Translations under genes and position numbers: made by a program
The notes under the pieces: model-generated
Told to the model about the DNA's origin: nothing
What the model saw: only the letters and a program-made list of their open reading frames with translations
Databases searched by the model: none
Source of the DNA: Pirellulales bacterium
GTDB lineage: Bacteria; Planctomycetota; Planctomycetia; Pirellulales; JALHPA01
Length of the DNA: 64,000 nt
Assembly (NCBI GenBank): GCA_033762255.1
Contig: JANRLT010000029.1
Span: 1-64,000 of the forward strand
Direction of reading: 5' to 3'
Shown here: positions 18,808 through 20,037 of the stretch, piece by piece
Layout of the letters: each line of letters opens with the position of its first letter
How positions within the stretch are numbered: position 1 is the stretch's first letter

Positions 18808-20037
18808 TCACGCCGCGGTGGCCGACCAAGGCAGGGCGACATTTAACAAGACATAGCCGCTTCCTAATAGTGCAAACGAAATCCGGTCAAACCACCGCTG
18901 AAATGTTTCCGCTTCCAGCTTTTCCAAAATGTATAGGGAGATTGCCGATTGGATCAACGTCAACAGAATCATGAAGATCCCCAGCTCATTAATGAGATCC
19001 GCCAGGACCAAAATGCCGCTGTCGGGCAAAAGGGCCGAGGTGATGTAAGAATTTGCCACCGCCGCAAACAGCCCCCCCACGCCTAGGCCAAAGCGGGGAT
19101 CGACATTGGTGGGTCGGATAAAGAACGCCAGCATGGCAATCGAAACCGAGATATACAGCGGCAAAAACATCTTCAAATAAAAACCCCAGCCGCTGCGGAC
19201 AATCTCAAAGCCCAGGCGAAATTGCGAAAAGGTCACGTATTTTTGCCCGGCGAGGCGCGGATCGCCAAAGTTTGTTTTATACGTGTGCGCTTTTTCGATG
19301 GCCTGGTGGGGCCGCATGGCAAATCCGGTGACTTTGACACGGCTGCTAATATGGGTGTTGTCCTGATCCACCGCAAAAAGCAGTTCCGCGCGGGGACGGA
19401 TGGGGCTTTCGATATTGATCGTGATCAGGTGCTCATCGCAGGGAAAACGGGCCACGTCAAAAAATTTGGTGATTTTGGCCAGTACTCGGTATTGCACATA
19501 ATGCTCGTCGCCATTGTCAAATTTGTCGATCACTTCGCGGGAATCGATCGTCCCATTCACCACCTGAAAACTCTCCGCTGGGTCAAAGTCACCCCCCCGC
19601 CACCGAAACCAAATGTAAAAATCAACCACCAGCGTGACATCCCTTATCGAAATCTCGGAAATCCGGTCCAGGTAAATTCCCGTGGTGACGACCAGAGGCC
19701 GGGCGTTGGCGGGCAGTTCCCACTGAATGGGCGTCAGGCCCTCTTCGTTTTGGCGGGGATCCATGCGCATGCGATGATTTATCGCCGTTTGCTGCCGATT
19801 ACGCCCTTGCACCCCCATGGCCAACCACCCGGTGAGAGCAAACAACAGGGCAATCCCCGCTCCCCAGAGCCATAAATAACGCCGTTGGGACGGGGTAAGA
19901 GGAACCGTGTTGGACAAAACGTCGGTCCCCGCTGCGGGGGCTGCTTTCACGGGGACGGTTGGCGGTGAAATGATCGCCGGTGGTGGGGCTGGATCGGGGC
20001 TAGGCGGCGGCTGCGAACCAGAATTGGGAGTTTCCAT
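18808..20037 (-). CDS. Pentameric ligand-gated ion channel homologue (Cys-loop family) with N-terminal anchor
   Basis: A 409-residue protein. A Pro-rich N-terminal tail (1-50) is followed by an extra membrane segment (about 54-76). A beta-rich domain follows (about 112-280) with IYLDRISEISIRDVTLVVDF, like the first strands of the neurotransmitter-binding domain. Next comes ARFPCDEHLITINIES (196-211) at the Cys-loop position, where FPxD is conserved but the flanking cysteines are absent, as in bacterial members. The four channel helices are M1 (285-307), M2 (315-337), M3 (343-368) and M4 (384-404). The pre-M1 sequence has Arg281 and the FYLKMFLP block, with the conserved proline in M1. Bacterial relatives such as GLIC and ELIC open to protons or amines; the ligand here is unknown. 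The N-terminal anchor is unusual. Confidence 0.8.
   Translation of the reverse strand: METPNSGSQPPPSPDPAPPPAIISPPTVPVKAAPAAGTDVLSNTVPLTPSQRRYLWLWGAGIALLFALTGWLAMGVQGRNRQQTAINHRMRMDPRQNEEGLTPIQWELPANARPLVVTTGIYLDRISEISIRDVTLVVDFYIWFRWRGGDFDPAESFQVVNGTIDSREVIDKFDNGDEHYVQYRVLAKITKFFDVARFPCDEHLITINIESPIRPRAELLFAVDQDNTHISSRVKVTGFAMRPHQAIEKAHTYKTNFGDPRLAGQKYVTFSQFRLGFEIVRSGWGFYLKMFLPLYISVSIAMLAFFIRPTNVDPRFGLGVGGLFAAVANSYITSALLPDSGILVLADLINELGIFMILLTLIQSAISLYILEKLEAETFQRWFDRISFALLGSGYVLLNVALPWSATAA

Follow-up and report, generated by a model that had tools for sequence, protein, structure and literature searches.

The gene at positions 18808..20037 on the minus strand of the window (the whole stretch of DNA analysed here, 64,000 nucleotides in length) raises the question of whether a bacterial ligand-gated channel can keep, as a membrane anchor, the N-terminal segment that its relatives use as a signal peptide. 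An initial annotation had read the product as a Cys-loop-type channel with an additional membrane segment ahead of the ligand domain. We find that the gene encodes a 409-aa subunit of a pentameric ligand-gated ion channel (pLGIC) of the Pro-loop type, whose hydrophobic segment near the N-terminus has most likely been retained as a signal anchor. A conserved N-terminal anchor is well supported for a whole branch of bacterial pLGICs.

Fold and family of the channel subunit

The gene product is a pLGIC subunit of the Pro-loop type, without a Cys pair, and its fold is evident by computation. The single-chain AlphaFold2 model (mean pLDDT 92.1, pTM 0.84) shows the beta-sandwich ligand domain and, after it, the four helices expected for the superfamily. 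Foldseek, run with this model, returned a GLIC/GABA-A chimera (E 2.9e-19), and VIA-align matched residues 110-407 (Z 23.9), overlaying them at Z of about 23-24 on structures of GABA-A receptors, GLIC chimeras, GluCl and glycine receptors. A sequence search of the PDB also reached a GLIC/GlyR chimera (E 4.3e-7). Curated profiles matched below their cut-offs: PF02931 with E 0.0041 (17 bits versus 26), TIGR00860 with E 7.1e-6 (25 versus 280) and NF033918 with E 1.6e-5 (24.5 versus 500), while PF02932 gave no match in the profile search. The cut-offs are also missed by a signal-peptide-bearing relative (L012), and a member of the protein's own clade (L002) has no Pfam match; thus, these scores reflect the divergence of the whole group.

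The ligand-binding domain spans residues 115-281 (19195..19695, minus strand, as are all features below) in the AlphaFold2 model and the VIA alignment. It is followed by the modelled helices M1 (285-306; 19120..19185), M2, the pore helix (312-334; 19036..19104), M3 (345-374; 18916..19005) and M4 (377-407; 18817..18909). The pentameric-channel features named initially are all present, including the opening strand VVTTGIYLDR (116-125), R281 before M1, F286-Y287, P293 and the four C-terminal helices. The designation “Cys-loop” held only in part. The motif F198-P199-C200-D201 does occupy the Pro-loop in the alignment (19435..19446), and P199 is kept in 64/64 aligned proteins. However, the disulphide pair is missing, as the protein has no cysteine besides C200, and the name applies loosely. 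The M1 proline P293 occurs in 1 of the 26 aligned anchor-clade proteins, that of the window, and in 22/64 rows of the wider alignment, and is therefore not a defining trait of this branch. By comparison with known M2 sequences, we take D313 to lie at -2', R315 at 0', G321 at 6' and F324 at 9', with P338 following at 23'. P199, the Arg at M2 0' and the Phe at 9' fall within the range given in the available text of Jaiteh et al. (2016; PMC4795631).

The window protein thus shares with GLIC and other simple prokaryotic pLGICs the ligand domain and four-helix pore, the Pro-loop proline, the Arg at M2 0' and the absence of a Cys pair, but differs from GLIC-type members in three N-terminal parts: a tail, an anchor that looks uncleaved and an ordered linker of 22 residues. 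It is the single pLGIC match in its genome, which fits a homopentamer; two other genomes of the phylum sample (G137 and G140) have five and three matches, respectively. In the window, genes resembling those for L32, a malonyl-transferase and a ketoreductase lie on the upstream side in divergent orientation, and a LarE-like and an ADP-glucose-pyrophosphorylase-like gene lie downstream (names from reading of the sequences and Pfam matches).

A single clade of probably anchored channels and its relatives

Homologues were collected from genome contigs (29 loci) and further genomes, giving 91 proteins after deduplication. Retention of the segment in homologues had been proposed beforehand as a check, and it was borne out: 26 proteins, the window's included, carry the segment, and the computed trees place them in a single clade. 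The “anchor” label was assigned by eye from N-terminal sequences before any tree was built, and the segment itself was excluded from the trees, which used the ligand domain and pore. The 26 proteins group together with SH-aLRT 96 in a tree of 88 rows (the 91 without L081 and two short rows) and with SH-aLRT 98 in one of 89 rows (86 plus three Cache-type rows; L081, L113, L010, L024 and L061 left out). In a third tree of 55 chosen rows the anchor clade has bootstrap/SH-aLRT support of 100/98 and is recovered in 100% of 200 bootstrap trees. Its neighbours appear, from their sequences, to carry signal peptides, so the simplest history is one swap of a cleaved signal peptide for an anchor, a reading that rests on unrooted trees and the by-eye label.

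Hosts of the clade are genomes of the planctomycete phylum together with metagenome-assembled genomes (MAGs) of an Acidobacteria member (L040), one labelled Rubrobacter (L041) and a Bacteroidota member (Prolixibacteraceae, L042). Matches that begin at profile position 22 or lower, and so take in part of the anchor region, were found in at least 18 of 396 genomes of the order sample and at least 10 of 397 of the class sample, the window's genome counted in both; these are lower bounds because few candidates per genome were scored. Four of the ten class-sample cases also occur in the order sample, and one is split over two contigs. Across the 392 genomes of the phylum sample the anchor segment occurs in two, again counting the window's; a further match from position 14 (L015/L123) ends its segment in G-H-A|D and was classed as a signal peptide. 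Among viral contigs, 209 stretches matched the search pattern and none was a relative, and a search of phages gave no match. Ten plasmid records hold a relative of protein P0001, and the N-terminus of one (H8) is signal-peptide-like.

In genome G900, an otherwise well-conserved anchored channel gene (L100), one of the 26, has a TGA around 1546-1548, at the codon equivalent to W58, which could be a sequencing error, a pseudogene or something else. Outside the clade, the N-terminal segments of proteins from a Snowella MAG (L059) and from genome G117 (L027) might, judging by their sequences, also be anchors.

A cleaved signal peptide in the known bacterial members, as stated in the initial annotation, agrees with the available text of Tasneem et al. 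(2004; PMC549065), where a signal peptide is given at the start of all bacterial members found, Cache/MCP-N fusions to pLGICs are described and extra passes are not mentioned. The statement does not extend to Cache-type pLGICs or to a relative from Acaryochloris marina, which have a segment before the ligand domain. Cache/MCP-N pLGICs, such as P0002 of the Prolixibacteraceae MAG and its relative in Vibrio sp. THAF191d, share with the window protein a hydrophobic segment directly before the ligand domain. P0002 differs in what lies ahead of that pass: its 708 residues begin with an N-terminal hydrophobic segment and a dCache/MCP-like domain, continue with two more segments, the second of which is the pass itself, and end in a pLGIC-like part. 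It matches the clade profile by hhalign with E 1.1e-4 and probability 56, and a GLIC chimera in the PDB with E 0.016; it is the second match in its genome with a wider profile (E 3.2e-15). In the window protein, some 40 residues separate the anchor from the ligand domain, and Pfam gives no match to a sensor domain.

A relative in the Vibrio plasmid record extends over 93% of P0002, and the Acaryochloris plasmid protein (WP_012166950.1, P0003) matches P0002 only from the last segment on. The latter, annotated as a hypothetical protein on plasmid pREC1 (L169:2989-4446), resembles the window protein in being pLGIC-like, with a short hydrophobic segment right before the ligand domain and no A-x-A seen. 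It differs in its C-terminal tail of about 100 residues and in grouping with the Cache-type pLGICs rather than with the window's clade; it has no Pfam match at E 0.1. In the 89-row tree, P0002 and the Vibrio and Acaryochloris proteins form their own group with support 100, on a separate branch of long or odd rows. A pass right before the ligand domain therefore occurs on two separate branches. The idea that the anchor is a relic of the Cache-type pass was not adopted, as the groups lie apart in the tree and two changes are needed, a count from unrooted trees that is blind to gain versus loss and includes a long Vibrio branch and the odd composition of P0002.

DeCLIC, another prokaryotic pLGIC, likewise has added N-terminal parts contacting the ligand domain, but in the available text these are two soluble jelly-roll lobes rather than a membrane helix (PMC9897478). 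Within the window's phylum, genome G140 encodes two fusions of a periplasmic binding domain to a pLGIC (L018:1420-3327, minus strand; L038:490-2427, plus strand), the domain matching PF16868 (NMT1_3) with E 6.1e-47 and 3.9e-55, respectively. In the Prolixibacteraceae MAG, 15 bases separate the stop codon of the dCache-pLGIC gene (L042:2865-4988, plus strand) from the start of an anchored pLGIC gene (L042:5007-6101), a hint that the two may form a mixed channel or belong to one operon. At two loci of family f8 (L151:2857-7123 and L155:6073-10303), FG-GAP/UnbV, TPR and anchored channel genes adjoin, with four-base overlaps at the junctions.

Anchor or signal peptide

Both N-terminal parts reported earlier, a Pro-rich tail and a hydrophobic segment at 54-76, were found before the ligand domain. 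The tail (residues 1-48; 19894..20037) is unconserved in sequence, with block-of-ten mean pLDDT of 51-65 over residues 1-40. It is followed by a single continuous predicted helix (49-92; 19762..19893), of which about 54-76 would lie in the membrane while the remainder would project into the periplasm, and by a linker to the ligand domain (93-114; 19696..19761) that is predicted to be ordered. Residues 51-120, covering most of the helix and the linker, reach block-of-ten mean pLDDT of 92-97. In a control prediction of L012, a homologue from outside the clade modelled with its signal included, the signal helix is weak (9-30; blocks at 52, 75 and 64), residues 30-52 form a disordered linker below 50 and later blocks reach 80-98. 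Part of this contrast may stem from alignment depth (36 rows, 22 with signals, for the control; 64 and 26 for the window protein). By simple arithmetic, a 44-residue helix of about 66 Å would rise some 24 Å above the membrane. A pLGIC ligand domain is about 60 Å tall, and its first strand starts near the top in known structures; from the modelled projection, the linker could reach that top.

Within the clade, W58 is kept in 24/25 rows of the 26-row alignment, and in the linker G100 is found in 25/25 rows with a letter and A112 in 25/26. R52 and W58 are both invariant in the first seven rows, but R52 is an Arg in only 13/25 of the wider anchor alignment. A Tat signal was considered and rejected, since its RR varies as RK, RER or RR even within seven rows. 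To judge from these sequences, the anchor segment is better conserved than the signal peptides of related channels. At 45-60% core identity, segment conservation was 27.1 in non-f8 anchor pairs (3.6 shuffled; 19 pairs), 36.1 in f8 anchor pairs (4.9 shuffled; 59 pairs) and 10.4 in signal-peptide pairs (1.7 shuffled; 42 pairs), and at 35-45% it was 15.6 for anchors (16 pairs) versus 9.5 for signal peptides (153 pairs), the pairs in each case not being independent. Below 45% core identity, the substitution score of the segment is higher in anchors than in signal peptides, but its percent identity is not (0.229 vs 0.221; 0.237 vs 0.236).

Cleavage sites were scored with a home-made matrix trained on 60 related signal peptides, for which leave-one-out scores were used. 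It was applied to 85 proteins (25 anchor, 60 signal-peptide), leaving out L081, L100, L018 and L038, as well as L059 and L027 because each may carry its own anchor. The signal-peptide homologues score from 2.1 to 10.8 (5th-95th percentiles; minimum 1.0) and the anchor proteins from -1.6 to 8.1, with the window protein lowest. A clear signal-peptidase site after residue 76, named at the outset as the sign of an unusually long signal peptide, is absent by this matrix: the best candidate, AMGVQG|RN, scores -2.3, under all 60 signal-peptide homologues, and by this score the window protein departs from the GLIC-type architecture with its cleavable signal peptide. The two distributions overlap, as 14/25 anchor proteins exceed the signal-peptide 5th percentile (2.1) and 9/25 the lower quartile (5.0). 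In six f8 members of the clade (L076, L077, L082, L084, L085 and L086), the helix ends in A-R-A, A-V-A or A-W-A with Q as the next residue; signal peptidase could plausibly cut at such a site, and cleavage may have returned there.

Counted over 12 flanking residues, the 25 anchors average 3.16 lysines and arginines ahead of the segment and 3.0 behind it, versus 2.76 and 1.11 in 62 other proteins; the window protein has a net charge of +2 before and +3 after. These flanking charges, being near equal, are not the basis for orientation: the N-terminus would lie inside because the ligand domain must be outside, so that a cytoplasmic tail follows from pLGIC topology. Uncharged-run length hardly separates the groups (median 22 in anchors vs 20 in others). 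Linker length is narrow in anchors (25-75%, 29-33 residues) and scattered in others (8-25); by the same measure the window protein has 24, at the short end for anchors.

We weighed a retained anchor against three other explanations. The segment could be a long cleavable signal peptide that serves Sec targeting only and is cut off at about residue 75-80 to yield an ordinary four-pass pLGIC. The -3/-1 rule for signal-peptidase sites is loosely obeyed by AMG (73-75) and VQG (76-78), the six f8 relatives show A-x-A|Q in the equivalent position, clade members L002 and L041 score 6.2 and 6.0 in the matrix, relatives outside the clade are mostly signal-peptide-like by sequence, and neither flanking charge nor run length tells an anchor from a signal peptide. 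Nevertheless, we consider cleavage unlikely given the score of the window protein, the lowest of 85, the 53 residues that precede the hydrophobic segment, the conservation of W58 and the segment, and the modelled high-confidence helix that continues unbroken through the would-be site. It is more improbable still, to the point of being barely credible, that the true start lies further downstream and that tail and anchor are not made. The reading frame opens with an ATG, two codons after an in-frame TGA; no clear Shine-Dalgarno sequence precedes the ATG, and GTG codon 30 and TTG codon 41 are possible alternative starts. However, starts at codon 30 or 41 would still include the anchor, one at codon 74 would remove any export signal, and similarity to homologues from other phyla begins at about residue 47.

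The remaining alternative accepts a retained anchor but gives it mainly a role in assembly or in docking of a partner, either a Cache-type subunit or a cytoplasmic protein, without influence on gating. The adjacent dCache/MCP-like and anchored channel genes of the Prolixibacteraceae MAG and the overlapping FG-GAP/UnbV, TPR and channel genes of the two f8 loci speak for such a role, which we regard as possible if rather doubtful. The window gene, by contrast, has no such neighbour, the tails are not conserved, and when the window was compared with 13 homologue loci (14 stretches in all; home-made gene calls, blastp at 1e-6), no neighbour family was common to more than a few.

A proposed tether of the ligand domain and its implications

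The reading that we favour, and hold to be probable, is that of an uncleaved signal anchor in a five-pass, homopentameric Pro-loop channel subunit with a tethered ligand domain. The pentamer, its topology and packing, the function as a tether, the ligand and the selectivity for ions are inferred here. The product would assemble, probably with four further copies of itself, into a Pro-loop ligand-gated ion channel of the inner membrane, in which a signal anchor with cytoplasmic N-terminus takes the place of the cleaved signal peptide. The anchor would send the ligand domain to the periplasm and remain attached to it, giving five passes per subunit and 25 per pentamer. Its helix would extend above the membrane and pass into the ordered linker, which connects with the ligand domain at its first strand; as that strand lies near the top, each ligand domain would have two attachments, M1 and a tether along its outer face. 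Most probably, this would restrain or bias the movement of the ligand domain in gating, and the lipid and the cytoplasmic tail would be given a handle on this domain. More speculatively, and with considerable doubt, the anchored proteins may constitute a distinct five-pass branch in which the anchor packs on the pore domain, the tether runs outside the ligand domain, membrane or cytoplasmic signals influence gating from the top of the ligand domain and, in Bacteroidota, mixed pentamers form with the Cache-type neighbour.

Among the matches listed in a literature search of titles and abstract openings (mostly without subscription papers), none concerned an uncleaved N-terminal pLGIC anchor, a negative to which we attach little weight, and none paired “pentameric ligand-gated ion channels” with “Planctomycet”. 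The available text of Jaiteh et al. (2016; PMC4795631) gives no known biological role for unicellular members of the family and discards terminal regions before phylogeny. The anchored channels indicate that these terminal regions carry lineage-specific architecture. In the usual picture, pLGIC subunits have four passes and the ligand domain has a free N-terminus, whereas here a fifth, N-terminal helix would be joined to that N-terminus. The anchored branch would be a natural setting in which to test the coupling of the pore to movements of the ligand domain, and the extra helix would readily lend itself to control by the membrane or the cytoplasm.
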